DNA of 64,000 nt from assembly GCF_900112335.1 (NCBI RefSeq), contig NZ_FOLG01000001.1:124001-188000 (forward strand), read 5' to 3'. A program made the translations under genes and the position numbers. Of the stretch, positions 9,896 through 16,407 are shown piece after piece. The stretch's first letter is position 1. The number at the start of each line of letters is the position of its first letter. The notes under the pieces are model-generated. The model was not told the DNA's origin, ran no database searches, and worked only from the letters and a program-made list of their open reading frames with translations. The DNA comes from Tropicimonas isoalkanivorans. GTDB taxonomy: Bacteria > Pseudomonadota > Alphaproteobacteria > Rhodobacterales > Rhodobacteraceae.

Positions 9896-10342
9896 TCAAT
9901 CCACCCCGAGAAATTGCGACCGAACCTCCCAGAGGCCCGGCTCCTCCATACGCCGCAAAATTAATGCGCCGGCGGGACAGGCTGCACGCGGTCCCATTCC
10001 GAGACCGATTGTCAGGAACGCCGCGACAGTGGAGCAGACCTCCTCCTTCGGGATGTTCAAGAAGTCTTCGGACGTGCTGATACCGCCCCGCTGCTTCCGG
10101 AAATGCTCAATCAACGCGCCCTCGATCCTGCCGCTCACCTGCCGTCCGAGGCTCTTCGGATCGACATTCGGTTGGGCGGCCCTGACCAGCCCCTCGATCG
10201 GCCCTTCGCTGATAGCGCTGGCCAGAATCTCCAGGCCCAGCCGTTCCTCCAGCCAGGCGTCTCCCGTCGCTTTCGATTCCCCCTGGTCGAGGGCAATCGA
10301 TTCCGCCAGCAAAGCCAGCGTCTGATTTTCCAGTGATGGCAT
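9896..10342 (-). CDS. Unknown 148-residue helical protein
   Basis: No family recognised. The product (MPSLENQTLALL...) is rich in leucine, alanine and glutamate and looks mainly alpha-helical and soluble, with no signal peptide; C-terminal stretch FLTIGLGMGPRAACPAG is more hydrophobic and could be a buried helix. The ATG at 10342 has a GGGAG ribosome-binding site seven bases upstream, which favours it over an in-frame ATG at 10375. It lies 71 bases downstream of the SARP-like regulator on the same strand and is followed by a terminator, so the two probably form one transcript. A partner or effector of the regulator is possible, by position only. Confidence 0.65.
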   Translation of the reverse strand: MPSLENQTLALLAESIALDQGESKATGDAWLEERLGLEILASAISEGPIEGLVRAAQPNVDPKSLGRQVSGRIEGALIEHFRKQRGGISTSEDFLNIPKEEVCSTVAAFLTIGLGMGPRAACPAGALILRRMEEPGLWEVRSQFLGVD

Positions 10343-10413
10343 TCCAGTCTCCCTGCGATCGCAAAGAGCACTCAATCAGGCCTAGCGTTAGTGCAGCGTG
10401 ATGCGGAGCCGCC

Positions 10414-12027
10414 TCAATCGAGGCCACGCAGGAAGTCGGTATCGACAAGGCCAGCCGTACGCATCATCGAAACGGGATATTTCCCGTCGTCGACAAGGCG
10501 GCGCACGGTGAAGTCGGGTTCGACCTTGCGGAGCAGGTCGATGGAACGACGGGTCGCCACTTCGTCCCGGGCCAGAGAATAGAGGCCGATGAGATACCGC
10601 AGCGGCGGACGGAATTCCGGATTGAGCGACCGGGATGTCTCGAGGTGTGCGGTCGCCTCTCCCATCCTGCCTGTAACGGCGGCGGCCAGAGCGAGTTGGA
10701 ACTCCGACCAGAAGCGGAAGGACGCATTGTGCGACAGCATCTGCGCCGTCTTCGCCGCAGAATACGCCGTTTTCGTCTCGCCGGTATAGAGAAGCGCAGT
10801 GGACCATGCCCACCAGGCTAGCGGGTTCGAAGGATTGGCCGTCACCGCGATCTTGGACAGCTCCCGGCTGGCATTTCCATCGTTCTCCAGCGCCAGCCGC
10901 GCATTCGCCACGGAGCAGAGGACGTTGGAATTCGTCGGCTCCCCCGCCAGGGCGTCCGCACACAATTGCCGGACCGCCTCCGCCGTCTCTTCCTTGTCGC
11001 GGTCGCAGAATTCGACGTAGCGGATCACTTCGAGCTGCGCCAGCCAGGCGTCGAACAGGCCACGCGCCTCGATCTCGCGGGCCTTCAGGAAAAGCATCCT
11101 GGCCTCGTCGAGGTCCCTGCGCCGCATCGTGAACATCTTCCGCAGGGCAGTGCTGGCAAGCGCGTCCGCGTCGAGATCGTGGCGGCGATTGCGCGCCGGT
11201 CGGCTCATCATTCCCATGACAGCAACCACCGCCCGATGGCTCAGCGCCATGTGCGCAATTCCGATTACGGCCTGGGACGCCGGTTGCGGAGCGATCACGC
11301 TATCAGTCCATACGGTCCGTTGCGTGCCGCTTTCGTTGATCGACACGCGTAGACCGATCTCGTCGCCGGAGCCGAACGCCTCCACCTCTGCGATCAGCAG
11401 GCCCGGTTCGGCCGTGAGAGGCGCCGCGAGATGCGCGTCGATGTCGAAGGTTTCCCGGAGGGACTTCGCCAGATGGTCGCAGAACTGCTTTTCCACCATG
11501 CCGAGTGGAGAGCGCGCCGGGCTCACGAGCGTCAGAACGATCTGACGCTGTGCGCGTTGCAGGGACCGGGCGGCGGCCCGCGGGGCGGAGATCGGGAGGG
11601 CACCGGTTTCGTGTGCGGGGCGCTGACGCCGACTCCGCATCGTCGTCAGCCAGTCGTTGAACTCCGGGCTGTCCACGTCCAGGCCTTCGAGAAAGTCCGC
11701 GTCCGACTCCTCGGCATCGCGCACCACAACGCGGCTGGAGTCCAAGCCGATGTTCACGCGATCGGAGACGATCACCGCATCGAGGCTGTCCGAGGACCTG
11801 CGGATCGTCCGAAGGGTTTGCCGCAGATTGGCCTGGCTGGACTTGGAATCCCCATCCCACAGCTTGTCCTGAAGCCAGGTTCTGGTGCGGGTGAAGTTCG
11901 GCTCCGTGGCCAACAAGGCAAGTAGACCTTGGGCCTTTCGGCCGACGGGCGTGACCTCCGCGCCCGTCCGGGTGTCGATGCGGAAACGGCCGTTCAGATG
12001 GATCGTCAGTTCCGGTTCCGTGGTCAT
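10414..12027 (-). CDS. SARP-type transcriptional regulator with TPR region
   Basis: A 537-residue protein. Residues 1-100 resemble the AfsR/SARP winged-helix DNA-binding domain (RKAQGLLALLAT, LWDGDSKSSQANLRQTLRTIRRS), followed by a linker, a mixed alpha/beta region (about 165-260) and a helical C-terminal half with TPR-like repeats that usually mediates protein contacts or signal sensing. No transmembrane segment is seen. It is divergent from the haloperoxidase-fold/subtilase/M14-like gene set, with a 159-base intergenic region containing a GTGAATCAC dyad, so it is the likely local regulator. The ligand or stimulus is unknown. Confidence 0.8.
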   Translation of the reverse strand: MTTEPELTIHLNGRFRIDTRTGAEVTPVGRKAQGLLALLATEPNFTRTRTWLQDKLWDGDSKSSQANLRQTLRTIRRSSDSLDAVIVSDRVNIGLDSSRVVVRDAEESDADFLEGLDVDSPEFNDWLTTMRSRRQRPAHETGALPISAPRAAARSLQRAQRQIVLTLVSPARSPLGMVEKQFCDHLAKSLRETFDIDAHLAAPLTAEPGLLIAEVEAFGSGDEIGLRVSINESGTQRTVWTDSVIAPQPASQAVIGIAHMALSHRAVVAVMGMMSRPARNRRHDLDADALASTALRKMFTMRRRDLDEARMLFLKAREIEARGLFDAWLAQLEVIRYVEFCDRDKEETAEAVRQLCADALAGEPTNSNVLCSVANARLALENDGNASRELSKIAVTANPSNPLAWWAWSTALLYTGETKTAYSAAKTAQMLSHNASFRFWSEFQLALAAAVTGRMGEATAHLETSRSLNPEFRPPLRYLIGLYSLARDEVATRRSIDLLRKVEPDFTVRRLVDDGKYPVSMMRTAGLVDTDFLRGLD

Positions 12028-12102
12028 TGCAAATCCGATCGACCGTGCGCAGTCAGCGTGCCTTTGCCAAGGTTAATCAATTCGCGCCGTCCCGTGAACC
12101 CA

Positions 12103-12113
12103 GCGTGAATCAC
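12103..12113. promoter_or_regulatory. Candidate operator dyad GCGTGAATCAC
   Basis: GTGA-A-TCAC dyad in the divergent region between the SARP-like regulator and the haloperoxidase-fold gene. A closely matching element (GCGTGAGTCACGC) lies in the divergent region of the other regulator-like TPR gene at 41911-41923. Binding is inferred, not shown. Confidence 0.35.
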
Positions 12114-12186
12114 CCGCAAAGCGCTTTGTGCAACGGGCGATATGGGCCAAAGTGTTAACATTTCATAGAAGGGAGAGGGATTTGCA

Positions 12187-13269
12187 ATGGCACATGGACT
12201 GGCAGCCGGCGGAGGGTTCGGCGGCGGATTTGGTGGCGGTTTCGGCGGCGGGTTCGGTGGTGGTTTCGGTGGAGGGTTTGGAGGCGGCTTCGGGGGTGCG
12301 GCCGGAGCGGCGTCGCCGCTGCTCGCCTCCGCGTTGATGACCTCCCACGACGCCCTCGCCGGCTACTGGAACGACGACGCAGCTCTCGCCACGCCCCCGC
12401 GCAGCGGCGTTGGCGACGATCTCGGGTACCTCTCTGCCGGGCGCCGGGCGGAGGTGCTGCTTGGCCAGATGCTCGGCGGGCTGTCGGTTCGTAGTGACGG
12501 AGATGGCCGCGCCACGCTCCGCGTTGGCGGCGCCGATGTGTGCGAAATTCGGAGGCCGGACGAGGCTGACTTCGAGAAACAGATGCTCTTCCTGCGCAAT
12601 TACGCCGACCTCCGCGTGGACCGTATTCCCGAAATCGTTGCACAGACGGCGACAATCATCCCCTTTTTCGGCGCATTGACGCACCTCAACGACACATGCC
12701 GCAAATCGACATTGGAACTTCTGACGCTAACCCAATCCGTTGCCATCGCCCTGGAAATGCAAGTGAAGCACTTCTGTTGGGCCGCCCGCCCCGCGGAGCG
12801 GAGCGACAAGGTGCAGCCGATCATCCAAACCCCGGATCACTCCAGCTTTCCGTCCGGTCATGCCACGGAAGCCTTCGCCGTCGCCACCGTCCTCCATCAT
12901 CTTCAAACCGGCGAAACCGGCCCAGCGGAGGCGCACATGGCCTACCTGGTCGCGCACCGGATCGCCGTAAACCGGACCGTCGCCGGCGTGCATTACCCTG
13001 TGGACTCGGCTGCGGGAGCGGTTCTGGGGTGCACGATCGGCGAGATCGTCCTGGCTGCGGCGAGCGGCGAGGCCGTCCGACAACGCGGGTACGGGGGCGA
13101 CAGCGAAGGGTCGTGCAAGCTCAAAGCAACCGCCGACTTCGATTTGCACTGGCTGGCCGAAAGCTTCTCGGAGTTGCAGGGCCATCCATCCTCGACCGAT
13201 GAAACGACGGCGACCGACCCGATCCCCGTGATCGCCGCCCTCGTTCAGGCCGCCAAGGAGGAGTGGTGA
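12187..13269 (+). CDS. PAP2/vanadium-haloperoxidase-fold protein with GGGF-repeat N-terminus
   Basis: A 360-residue protein. The PAP2 superfamily active-site set is intact: K194-x6-R201-P202, P222-S223-G224-H225, and R263-x5-H269. In this superfamily these residues bind phosphate (phosphatases) or vanadate (haloperoxidases), so either activity is possible; the soluble, signal-less layout favours the haloperoxidase-like branch. Residues 8-38 are a run of seven GGGF units, unlike anything in the rest of the window. No signal peptide or membrane helix is apparent. The ATG follows AGGGAGAGGG. The subtilase gene begins three bases after its stop, so the two are almost certainly co-expressed. Confidence 0.82.
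   Translation: MAHGLAAGGGFGGGFGGGFGGGFGGGFGGGFGGGFGGAAGAASPLLASALMTSHDALAGYWNDDAALATPPRSGVGDDLGYLSAGRRAEVLLGQMLGGLSVRSDGDGRATLRVGGADVCEIRRPDEADFEKQMLFLRNYADLRVDRIPEIVAQTATIIPFFGALTHLNDTCRKSTLELLTLTQSVAIALEMQVKHFCWAARPAERSDKVQPIIQTPDHSSFPSGHATEAFAVATVLHHLQTGETGPAEAHMAYLVAHRIAVNRTVAGVHYPVDSAAGAVLGCTIGEIVLAAASGEAVRQRGYGGDSEGSCKLKATADFDLHWLAESFSELQGHPSSTDETTATDPIPVIAALVQAAKEEW
12208..12300 (+). repeat. In-frame 12-base tandem repeat encoding GGGF units
   Basis: Seven consecutive 12-base units encode Gly-Gly-Gly-Phe within the haloperoxidase-fold gene. Units vary at synonymous positions, so the array is not a fresh slippage product and the amino-acid pattern appears to have been kept. Such arrays form flexible, self-associating low-complexity segments. 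Confidence 0.85.
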
Positions 13270-13272
13270 GCC

Positions 13273-15312
13273 ATGGTACCATGGTCGGATTGGGCCCCTT
13301 TGGAGGACCCTGAAGCATCGCCTTACGCAGATTGGTGGCACAGGATGGAAGCGCTGGACGGCCATGCGAAGCCCCACGGCCTGATGCGGGACGTCGTCCC
13401 GCTCCGCGCTATCGACCCCGAATTGCCGGACCATGGCACGGCGCCTAAACCCCGCCTCCGGCTGGGGGATGACCTGACAGCGCCGGAAATGCCAATGACT
13501 TGGAGATCGAAATTTGAGCATCACTTGAAGGCACAAGGCGATTGGCTCCCCCCGCTCTCCACCCTGCCCGACCTGCCGGACGGCTCGGTGATCGTCGGCG
13601 TGATCGACGCCGACATTCCACTGGGCCATTCCCGGTTGCGCGATGCGTCGGGCAACTCGCGGATTGCCGCCGCGTGGCAGATGGGGCAACCGACCGGGCC
13701 GGACTATCTGCCCTTCGGCAATGAGCTCTACCAGGCCGACATCGACCGGCATCTGCGAGAGTGCAAAACGGGTTCGGACGGGCGGATCGACCAGTTGGCC
13801 TTCGATCTGCGGACGGGAACGGTGGATATGACCACCCGCTTCGGACGTCGGGCGTTGGCCGGCCGCTCGGCGCATGGCGCACACGTTCTGGACGTTGCGG
13901 CGGGCTGCGAGCGTTCGGCCGCGGCGGATATTGGCAAAACCTGCGTCATCGCCGTCAACCTGCCGCCCCGCGCCGCATTTGGCGCGTCGGGTGAGTTTCT
14001 CGACTACTACATGGTCCATGCGCTACGCCGGATCGTCGATTTGAGCGACGCAATCTGGGTGAAGAACCACCCAGAGCCGACGGACGGCCCCATCGGCTAC
14101 CCGACGATCATCAACCTGTCCTTCGGCCGCCAAGCAGGCGTGAAGGACAGTCGCGGCGTCTTTGCGAGCGCCCTGTCGCAGCTCATCGGTCTCCGGGACG
14201 ACAGCCGCGCGCCTTTGGACATCGTGATGCCGGCGGGAAACGACAACTTGGAGCGGATGTACGCCGTCGCCAATCTCGAGCCGGGAGTGGACGGCCCCGG
14301 GGCGGTGGCGGAGATCGACTGGCGCATACAGCCGGAAGACCAGTCTTCCAACTACGTCGAGATCCTTTTCGAAGCCCCGAGCGAGGCTAGCTCGCCCCAT
14401 GCGCCTATCGAGATCGACCTCAGTCCCCCTGGCGCGGCGCCCTGCCCCCGGCCGATCCCGGTGAATGCCCGATCCGAGCTTGGCAGGTTCGCGGCGATCT
14501 ATTGCAGGATGCTGCCGGCCGACCGCGAAGGTAACACGCAGCTTTACCGGCTCCTCCTGTGCGTGGCCCCCACAAGTCGGCCGGGTGGTCATGGCGCCTG
14601 TGCGCCGTCCGGCGCCTGGAAGATCCGACTGCGCAACGTGAGCGACAGCCCGGTGGAGGTGGACCTCAATATCCAGACCGACCAATCCATCTTGCCCGCA
14701 AGCACCGCCGGCCGGCGGTCCTATCTCGACAGCCCGTTCTATCGCAGGTTCGACTCCGGGGGCCGACCGCTCGACACTTGGGCCTCGGAGCTCGGCAACG
14801 ATACGGTCGCAAGGGGTTCCGAAGCGCGTGGACCGCAAGACCCCGTCTTCGATCCCGAGGCCAACCCGTGTGTCCGGCGACACGGGACCATCAACGCCAC
14901 CGCCTCCAGCGCGCTCGTCGTCTGCGCAGGGGGCTATAGGCGCTCCGATGGCAGGGAAGCGCCCTATTCGTCCACCGGCACCGGCGTGCCGCTCTCCGAT
15001 GACGGCCGGAGCGCGCCCACTGCCGCCTTCCCCACGGATGACGGCTACGCCCACTTCGGCATCCTCGCCGCTGGCGCGGCCGATGGGTCCGTCGTTCCGA
15101 TGCGCGGCACCAGCTTCGCCGCGCCACAGGCCACGCGGCTGATCGCGCTGCGCCGGCTCAGCGGCAACACGACCCGTTCCGGCAATGAGATCTTGTCCGA
15201 TCAGGCCGAGGACGACGAAAGCCACTCGGGATACGCAGGCGAACGGACCATTGCAAAAACGGGCAAGGGACGTGCGCGCCTCCCCCAACCTCGGCGCGTC
15301 GGGCGAATGTAG
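13273..15312 (+). CDS. S8 family serine peptidase (subtilase), no signal peptide
   Basis: A 679-residue subtilisin-fold protease with all catalytic elements: D112 in VGVIDADIP, H201 in SAHGAHVLDVAAG, oxyanion N323 in MPAGNDN and nucleophile S614 in MRGTSFAAPQ. The interval between N323 and S614 is about 290 residues, so a large domain, partly beta-rich, is inserted there. There is no signal peptide and no obvious I9 propeptide; the N-terminal about 100 residues are charged and specific to this protein, so an intracellular or non-classically exported enzyme is likely. It follows the haloperoxidase-fold gene by three bases and precedes two small genes. Substrate unknown; the GGGF protein is an obvious candidate partner. 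Confidence 0.88.
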   Translation: MVPWSDWAPLEDPEASPYADWWHRMEALDGHAKPHGLMRDVVPLRAIDPELPDHGTAPKPRLRLGDDLTAPEMPMTWRSKFEHHLKAQGDWLPPLSTLPDLPDGSVIVGVIDADIPLGHSRLRDASGNSRIAAAWQMGQPTGPDYLPFGNELYQADIDRHLRECKTGSDGRIDQLAFDLRTGTVDMTTRFGRRALAGRSAHGAHVLDVAAGCERSAAADIGKTCVIAVNLPPRAAFGASGEFLDYYMVHALRRIVDLSDAIWVKNHPEPTDGPIGYPTIINLSFGRQAGVKDSRGVFASALSQLIGLRDDSRAPLDIVMPAGNDNLERMYAVANLEPGVDGPGAVAEIDWRIQPEDQSSNYVEILFEAPSEASSPHAPIEIDLSPPGAAPCPRPIPVNARSELGRFAAIYCRMLPADREGNTQLYRLLLCVAPTSRPGGHGACAPSGAWKIRLRNVSDSPVEVDLNIQTDQSILPASTAGRRSYLDSPFYRRFDSGGRPLDTWASELGNDTVARGSEARGPQDPVFDPEANPCVRRHGTINATASSALVVCAGGYRRSDGREAPYSSTGTGVPLSDDGRSAPTAAFPTDDGYAHFGILAAGAADGSVVPMRGTSFAAPQATRLIALRRLSGNTTRSGNEILSDQAEDDESHSGYAGERTIAKTGKGRARLPQPRRVGRM

Positions 15313-15427
15313 CGGCTCGGCAGCTCTGGCACCTTCTCGCCTTCACGGAGGACTCACGCACTTGGCACCATCTTGAACGGCAGGGGCGCTCCGCTCCGAT
15401 TTCAGGAAATCTGCAGGGAGACACAAA

Positions 15428-15730
15428 ATGACGAGACGGGTGAAGGTTTATGCGTCCGATATTTCCGACCTGCAGGACTTCCTGTCGGAAAGCGGTACGG
15501 ATATGGGGCCAGGAGCCATCGTGTTGCCGGACCTTCATGGCGTGGCAACCGTGGTTCTCGCGGAGGAGCCCGTCGTCGAGGCGCTGCGGTCCCGCCGCAC
15601 GGCGCAACGGCGCCTCACGTTCCTCGACATCTTCACCGACCCGCGAGACCGCCTGGACCTCGTAAACCTCGGCAACCGGTTTCACGACGGGACGAGCCCG
15701 ATCGGGCTCGGCGTGAGAACCGCCGTGTAA
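15428..15730 (+). CDS. Unknown 100-residue protein coupled to the M14-like gene
   Basis: No family recognised. The product (MTRRVKVYASDISDLQDF...) is small, soluble and mixed alpha/beta in appearance, without signal or membrane segment. The ATG has a GGGAG site nine bases upstream. Its TAA overlaps the ATG of the next gene by one base (TAATG), indicating translational coupling with the M14-like protein. Being a small protein between a protease and a carboxypeptidase-like protein, it could be an inhibitor, chaperone or substrate, but nothing in its sequence decides this. Confidence 0.65.
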   Translation: MTRRVKVYASDISDLQDFLSESGTDMGPGAIVLPDLHGVATVVLAEEPVVEALRSRRTAQRRLTFLDIFTDPRDRLDLVNLGNRFHDGTSPIGLGVRTAV

Positions 15731-16407
15731 TGTACTACAATCAGGATGAAATTATTACCGCGGTCCATAACCTGGCCCGCCGGCATTCCGATCTCGCACG
15801 CCCGATCCGACTGCCCCACCTGAGCCCGCGAGGCCGCTTCGGCTATGCGCTCCTGATCAGCACGCCGTGCGCGGCCGACGCCCCAACCATGATCGTTTCA
15901 GGCGGCTGGCGGGCGGGTGACTGGCTCGCCTCGGATGGCATCGTCTCCGTTGCGGCCGATCTTCTGGGCGCGGTCTCGGACGGTCACGGGCTGCACTATG
16001 GTTCTTACAGGTGCCCGCGCAGGACCGTCCGGGATACGCTCGACGCTCTGCGACTGGTTCTGGTGCCCTGCATCCATCCGGACATACACGATCTCGATCC
16101 AGTAGCGCGCCACGCGGCAACGGAGACGGTTCCTGGCAGTCGTACGATGCTGTCACCGGGTGCGCAGAACCTATTCTGGCTTCGTGCGCGCTACCCGGCC
16201 ACCAGATGGCGCGTGAATGTGATTGGCCGGGGCCTCAATCATGTGCACACCAAGGCTGACGCTGGCGACATCGAGGTTGCCTGCGACGCGCCGCAAACTG
16301 GAGCGGGCCGGGATCACGGTATCCGCACGGTTTCTGCTGCCATTCTTGCTAAAATCGAAGACGCATCTCGCACGGCAACCCTGACGAAGGTCGTTCAAAC
16401 CCCCTGA
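15730..16407 (+). CDS. M14 carboxypeptidase-like protein lacking zinc ligands
   Basis: A 225-residue protein whose layout follows zinc carboxypeptidases of family M14: the N-terminal YNQDEIITAVHNLA helix, the RFGYALLIS strand, GGWRAGDW (58-65) at the place of the family's GG-x-HAREW motif, and PCIHPDIHD at the place of PxxNPDG. The zinc-binding His and Glu of HxxE are replaced by R61 and D64, so catalytic zinc binding is unlikely. It is also shorter than an active M14 domain (about 300). It may be a binding or regulatory pseudo-peptidase. The start is set by the TAATG overlap with the preceding gene. Family assignment rests on pattern resemblance and is moderate. Confidence 0.6.
   Translation: MYYNQDEIITAVHNLARRHSDLARPIRLPHLSPRGRFGYALLISTPCAADAPTMIVSGGWRAGDWLASDGIVSVAADLLGAVSDGHGLHYGSYRCPRRTVRDTLDALRLVLVPCIHPDIHDLDPVARHAATETVPGSRTMLSPGAQNLFWLRARYPATRWRVNVIGRGLNHVHTKADAGDIEVACDAPQTGAGRDHGIRTVSAAILAKIEDASRTATLTKVVQTP

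Follow-up and report, generated by a model that had tools for sequence, protein, structure and literature searches.

What unites a run of six genes in Tropicimonas isoalkanivorans, and why does one of them open with a four-residue unit repeated seven times? The genes, here called A to F, lie in a stretch of 64,000 nucleotides (NZ_FOLG01000001.1, positions 124,001 to 188,000; hereafter the window), A and B on the reverse strand, followed by C, D, E and F on the forward strand. A first-pass annotation of this DNA had proposed a candidate undescribed system in which a SARP-like regulator (B), a GGGF-repeat protein of haloperoxidase fold (C), a subtilase (D), a small protein (E) and an M14-like protein (F) take part. 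Its genes and coordinates were borne out when we re-read the window, and a conserved set does exist, for which no description was found in the open-licence PMC literature. The set is a different one, however: the conserved unit is, with near certainty, the three genes B, C and D, so that C and D belong together as proposed and the regulator is also core, whereas F is excluded, and A and E can count as no more than local companions. B (10414-12027, reverse strand) is divergent from C (12187-13269, forward strand), and C is separated from D (13273-15312, forward strand) by only the three bases within TGA GCC ATG (13267-13275).

The evidence for this module is the company that each gene keeps in other genomes. 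All 29 loci fetched by D from other genomes of the order sample contained a C homologue. We then compared 46 neighbourhoods of 15-20 kb each, comprising the window, five plasmid loci and 40 genome regions. The gene caller found D in 45 of these; all 45 contained a B-family gene, 43 had a called C, and one more (L034) has an annotated C. When loci were fetched by C only (the best 80 of 585 relatives), B was present in 80/80 and D in 79/80, with D within about 2 kb in 78/80. A later C-fetched set gave both B and D in all 39 readable loci of 40 fetched, and a further one gave B in 58/58 and D in 54/58. Recurrence of B-C-D in such distant taxa is beyond chance, and the adjacency of PAP2-fold and S8 genes across genomes, which the first-pass annotation had named as the thing to look for, was strongly evident. 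The layout varies: some loci share the window's arrangement, with B pointing away from C and D, while in others all three genes run in one direction or C faces D. The annotation of the Palleronia locus lists, in this order, a hypothetical protein (B), PAP2, S8, a haem peroxidase and a C1 peptidase.

Twenty places with weak PAP2 matches were chosen as an intended negative control, and failed as such, for all 20 proved to carry both repeats and B. Unrelated PAP2 proteins are thus not represented by any true negative set, and the sole background is the 751 called neighbourhood genes, among which no gene other than C has a real array (two matches were spurious). Eight remote-type genes lying directly 3' of C were scanned by Pfam, and all eight contained a subtilase domain, as a divergent D. 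In four remote loci (L325, L327, L328 and L329) a C with long GL/GLGLGN repeats has next to it, in place of a subtilase, a gene in convergent orientation that encodes about 920-940 residues; the one gene of this type that was scanned (L325) had no Pfam match.

Protein C (360 residues) matches PAP2 (PF01569; E=2e-13, 50.7 bits, cut-off 27.2). Proteins of this superfamily share the motif K-x6-RP, PSGH, R-x5-H-x3-D, and the corresponding residues K194, R201, P202, H225, R263, H269 and D273 of C are invariant in 71 sequences, with P222, S223 and G224 conserved in at least 90%. The predicted structure is closest to the class A acid phosphatases, and vanadium haloperoxidases score lower. The model thus makes C a protein of PAP2/class A acid phosphatase fold with conserved catalytic residues. 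With the haloperoxidases of the earlier label C shares the fold only, and oxidative chemistry by C itself, which had been suggested, is less likely because the fold is nearest to that of acid phosphatases.

The call of D as a subtilase was upheld: D matches Peptidase_S8 above cut-off (PF00082; E=9.6e-7, 28.8 bits, cut-off 21.8), and both the triad (D112, H201 and S614) and the oxyanion residue N323 are invariant in 21 and in 63 sequences. B has a SARP-like N-terminal winged-helix region, a middle region and a C-terminal TPR region. The winged-helix match is weak (Trans_reg_C, 17.3 bits, under the cut-off of 26.2) and recurs, at 0.01, in 3 of 16 B-family members, whereas TPR_2 is found in 13 of the 16. 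Pfam gave no bacterial transcriptional activation domain for the window's B at E up to 1. The SARP-like label would apply at most to the putative winged helix, and by its domain matches B is a TPR regulator. Two of the 16 B-family regulators scanned have Guanylate/adenylate cyclase domains, and L034 3356-5137 is annotated so, suggesting a swapped output domain. The same domain was seen in a gene near C at L295 (6872-10060).

The repeat occupies residues 8-35 of C (12208-12291, forward strand) and consists of seven GGGF units, each encoded by a different DNA unit. It is followed by a 13-residue segment, here called the cap (12292-12330). Residues 1-36 have a predicted local distance difference test score below 50 in AlphaFold2, so that the array is predicted to be disordered. 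The seven copies noted earlier are real, but their membership in a family of arrays, uniform within a gene and switching between species, had been missed. An array, defined as at least three identical N-terminal units, is present in 77/80, 38/39 and 55/58 of the C proteins in three sets. Once duplicates had been removed, along with those C proteins in which no array could be detected, 202 pooled distinct arrays represented 111 units up to rotation, with periods of three residues (141 arrays), four (52), five (4), six (3) and two (2). Twenty more arrays came from the remote loci, among them (NR)16, (SK)11, (NRG)13 and (LHKG)7, as well as some irregular GL-type repeats.

Within a gene, the unit is almost invariant: 1743 units were perfect, against 11 single-residue deviants flanked by perfect units. 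Between genes, it changes readily. In pairs of C proteins with bodies 75-85% identical (n=45, many of them Hydrogenophaga-type loci and thus non-independent), the period was shared in 100% and the unit in 13%; with bodies 85-100% identical (n=9), the unit was shared in four pairs. Hydrogenophaga and its relatives use SGGV, SGGI, SGGL, SGGA, SGGT, MSGG and MSSG, and one genus has AGV, SGV and TGV at a single syntenic locus. Copy number varies as well, with NSF repeated five, six or seven times in Phaeobacter species, and GGGF ten times in a sister species of the window's genus (G1489/L309) versus seven in the window. Where a genome has two readable arrays, their units differ (11/11 genomes; in a twelfth, G259, one array is unreadable).

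The array's charge is answered by the cap. Among basic arrays, the net charge of the next 13 residues is negative in 33/34 and zero in 1/34; among acidic arrays it is positive in 10/16, zero in 4/16 and negative in 2/16. Neutral arrays, of which the window's uncharged GGGF repeat is one, are followed by caps that are negative in 69 cases, zero in 76 and positive in 7. The relation held in independent contrasts (r=-0.43, p=2e-10; 201 tips) and in phylogenetically disjoint pairs, where the cap opposes the array in 16 versus 1, with one tie, of 18 (p=2.7e-4). It is strong for residues 1-10 after the array (r=-0.54, p=4e-12) and weak for residues 40-60 (p 0.04). The rule is weaker in later sets, being followed by 4/5 basic and 2/4 acidic arrays in one of them and by 10/14 basic arrays in the remote set. 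In these alignments, the cap is the sole tested partner that holds in both contrasts and disjoint pairs. Within C itself, two further candidates were set aside: (i) the body between residues 120 and 200, which opposed the array at rho -0.45 uncorrected, gave only r=-0.19 (p=0.025) for residues 100-200 in contrasts; and (ii) sites V151 and A155, with pairs of 3:0 and 6:1, were not significant.

How might such an array be used? Tentatively, we favor a mechanism in which D processes the array, with feedback through B. The array would be a handle for the control of C: D, which is encoded beside C and is apparently cytosolic, would cut in or beside the array, and cutting would mature or release the phosphatase while a single short peptide is shed in many copies. 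B, through its TPR part, would probably read the array, whether intact or as shed units, and set transcription of C and D, so that the state of the array feeds back on its own expression. Uniformity would matter in that a single reader needs every copy to work alike; unit switching would be co-drift with that reader, and the scrambling of codons among units (discussed later) would guard copy number from slippage. That the subtilase matures the GGGF protein, already proposed in the first-pass annotation, is a plausible part of this mechanism. In its favor are the strict linkage of B, C and D, remote loci included, the invariant catalytic residues of C and D, the predicted disorder of the array, the uniformity and wholesale switching of its units, the TPR region of B with a residue (W406) whose charge tracks that of the array in contrasts, and the precedent of protease-cut tandem precursors in RRNPPA systems. 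The widest form of the proposal, which we regard as doubtful when taken as one joint claim, is a widespread proteobacterial control system in which a phosphatase bears, as a mark of identity, a uniform, species-switching array on which the cell's own subtilase and TPR regulator act, with the array coevolving with its cap and the protein repeat kept perfect by selection while its DNA is scrambled, the whole serving as a peptide barcode or a tandem, pheromone-like signal of Gram-negative bacteria.

Several observations weigh against processing by D with feedback through B. First, D was not found everywhere: BLAST gave none in four loci (L286, L293, L295 and L296) and a D in only 1 of the 20 remote loci. 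Eight of the other 19 have the divergent subtilase seen by Pfam, and a Pfam scan of two neighbor genes not directly after C (L295 and L325) found no subtilase. Second, D is not co-directional with C in some loci (e.g., L054, L055 and L074). Third, the array's strongest partner is its own cap, as would be expected if the array interacts locally or with itself and not with a reader at a distance. Fourth come the columns of B and D. The charge of W406, in the TPR region of B, does covary with that of the array in contrasts (r=-0.38, p=3e-8, having moved from 7e-4 through 2e-5 as loci were added), but just 2 of the 18 disjoint pairs are informative, indicating few independent events; for this reason we do not claim that the TPR region reads the array by way of W406. 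No column of D tracked the array's charge after correction, bar one borderline column in the largest set, and D is therefore without a clear fit to the unit.

The remaining candidates among these columns were likewise rejected. Q181 of B (p 5e-7, then 2e-6) again had only two informative pairs. In D, A300 (r=-0.34, p=3e-4) was not significant after correction, and G605 (p=1e-4) was the borderline case. Across 20575 tests of other unit features, columns of B and D (R477 of B and T469 of D among them) passed Bonferroni correction for period and unit volume; these associations look to be driven by a few six-residue arrays and near-invariant columns, and were discounted.

The closeness of array and cap would also suit homotypic assembly, an alternative that we consider possible but somewhat unlikely. 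Here the array would join C molecules to one another in a condensate, fiber or bundle, for which any uniform unit would work; the cap would limit the repulsion of charged arrays, and D would dissolve or trim the assembly. In keeping with this idea, the conserved feature is uniformity and not a given sequence, the cap opposes the array's charge right beside it, the units are of low complexity with copy numbers of five to seven in Phaeobacter, and in each genome with two readable arrays the units differ. Arrays of like charge, for instance (NR)16 or (GGGR)10, should however repel one another, and assembly-type low-complexity segments usually tolerate degenerate repeats, which these arrays hardly contain. 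The AlphaFold2 model, being of a single chain, gives disorder only and is silent on assembly.

The distribution of the module bears on a different alternative. Among 292 genomes sampled from the order (shown as one family), D was detected in 67, and a C profile at 1e-10 matched 104, remote subfamily included, which puts the share of this sample between roughly one quarter and one third. Farther out, a D profile at 1e-20 matched 20/398 genomes of the phylum sample; C profiles matched 7/385 class genomes at 1e-50, and, at 1e-40, 10/248 genomes of family f8 and 31/250 of family f43, which is probably Burkholderiales and whose best matches are Hydrogenophaga loci. Named hosts include Roseovarius, Litoreibacter, Phaeobacter, Paracoccus, Bradyrhizobium, Bosea, Kiloniella, Hydrogenophaga, Variovorax and Paraburkholderia. 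In the window's genus, C was present at 1e-30 in 5/9 genomes, the window's own counted. The Phaeobacter module (L035 and L192-L197) is carried on rep_cluster_636 plasmids, several of them conjugative.

Some copies stand out by their content. At L144, two full B-C-D sets adjoin on one contig. A second subtilase-like gene, recognized by eye from its N-terminus, lies 3' of D at L066 (6043-8130) and at L124 (11951-13972). Two loci of the window's genus (L304 and L305) contain a second module type with broken C genes, beside which relatives of B and D still adjoin. Peroxidase genes recur within four genes of the module. An animal-type haem peroxidase family (c18; PF03098 in the two members scanned) does so in 8/126 loci (among them L040, L102, L104, L105, L109, L115 and L125), and a vanadium-dependent haloperoxidase (VHPO)-like family (c19; L045, L046, L054, L072 and L074) does so in 8/126. 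A haem peroxidase gene of the animal type also lies beside the module at L330 (7757-9472). As the same genome was sometimes fetched twice, these figures correspond to about seven and about five genomes, respectively. The VHPO-like label comes from motifs seen by eye, and the one c19 member scanned had no Pfam match. This recurrence hints at oxidant chemistry as an accessory of the module.

Patchy distribution, carriage on plasmids (conjugative ones in Phaeobacter included), peroxidase neighbors and broken C genes in two genomes of the window's genus speak for a conflict or stress system. Under attack or damage, D would free the phosphatase, which would then poison the cell or stop its growth, with B as the switch. 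The array would serve as a tail that blocks the enzyme, and its units would switch in an arms race against inhibitors or proteases of foreign origin. We nevertheless think this unlikely: no PADLOC family matched at E up to 1, and an arms race does not require the units to be uniform.

The DNA of the arrays speaks to whether the repeat matters at all. Between units, residues differ at a rate of 0.004 (0.4%), whereas codons for identical residues differ at 0.625 (62.5%), making residue differences roughly 150-fold rarer than synonymous ones, although detection of arrays as perfect runs biases the first figure low and inflates the ratio. Moreover, adjacent units share codons less often than expected from shuffling within the array: 865/2890 versus 1094+-22, with 0/2000 shuffles as low. 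The larger set (1495/4965 versus 1886+-27; 0/1000 shuffles) and the remote set (137/402 versus 157+-8; 5/1000 shuffles) gave the same picture. For most residues tested, synonymous codons are used more evenly in arrays than elsewhere in the gene (for Gly, GGA plus GGT make up 0.48 versus 0.26), with little or no such shift for Ser, His and Lys. Faster synonymous change in arrays is not a general rule, being absent in Phaeobacter and in L152/L157; it was found in L057/L063 and in L189 versus L190/L191 (Fisher 1e-4, 9e-6 and 6e-6). Its restriction to some pairs led us to read it as unit turnover.

The simplest reading of these patterns is that the perfect protein repeat is selected, together with selection or survivorship against slippage of its DNA. 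They make it quite improbable that the array is a mere spacer born of tandem duplication, a low-complexity tail under next to no selection. Duplication turnover does occur, as seen in the gain and loss of units in Phaeobacter and in the longer DNA periods of some arrays, and fully identical neighboring DNA units are not depleted (39/838 versus 39.4+-5.7 shuffled). Against neutrality stand the rarity of residue differences, inflated as that ratio is, the mismatch of neighboring codons, and the presence of an array in so large a share of C proteins.

The other genes of the window are peripheral. Gene A (9896-10342, reverse strand), which encodes 148 residues, lies 3' of B; gene E (15428-15730, forward strand) encodes 100 residues, and neither protein matches a Pfam family at E up to 1. 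F follows on the forward strand, its start overlapping the end of E in TAATG (15728-15732), and is M14-like by a partial match under cut-off (PF00246; 17.2 bits, E=0.0042, cut-off 21.6). The sister species retains the locus from A to E (identities: A, 69%; B, 76%; C, 71%; D, 63%; E, 60% over 78 residues) but has no F there. Relatives of F are rare (two plasmid records and 3 other genomes of 60); the three of their loci that were read (L306, L307 and L308) contain no C and no D, with a weak B-like match in two, and no F match was found in the other neighborhoods compared. Thus, F is not a module component. A and E, retained with B-C-D in the sister species, are local companions at best: a search for E with a threshold of 1e-3 found nothing in the other neighborhoods compared, and a relative of A adjoins B both in the sister species and at L037. 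As a guess from its pattern, E could be a small partner of D or a propeptide-like inhibitor acting in trans. The cascade once envisaged, with E and F as effectors, is largely refuted and very improbable, since despite their same-strand order and TAATG overlap, F is absent from the other neighborhoods and the sister species, and E is found in the sister species only.

Between species the sequence of the array is hardly constrained, whereas inside each gene its units are all but identical and the DNA is pushed the opposite way; this is an unusual form of selection. With more than 200 arrays set on an enzyme fold that is held constant, it also offers a natural experiment. Should the array prove to be read or cut by its neighbors, it would represent a novel type of peptide signal, or a tag for recognizing self.

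Parts of the module resemble known systems, each with a difference. C shares its fold with the class A (PhoN/PhoC-type) acid phosphatases, and at a lower structural score with vanadium-dependent haloperoxidases, but adds the N-terminal array and the linkage to B and D and, judged by eye, is without an obvious secretion signal. The nearest solved relatives of D by profile are CspB/germination-type subtilases (9sj6, 7.4e-22; 4i0w CspB, 5.6e-18). CspB-type enzymes are spore germination proteases of Firmicutes; in contrast, D adjoins C and B. The N-terminal region of B weakly resembles the winged helix of Streptomyces SARP and OmpR regulators, with TPR in place of the activation domain. TPR is also the receptor fold of RRNPPA systems, in which the receptor binds a processed peptide and a short gene for a secreted propeptide lies beside that of the receptor. 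Tandem pheromone precursors cut by proteases are reported from these systems (PMC11343458). The module differs from them in that its repeats sit on a 360-residue enzyme, its units are of two to six residues, its peptide sensing is hypothetical, and the DNA-binding part of its regulator is SARP-like.

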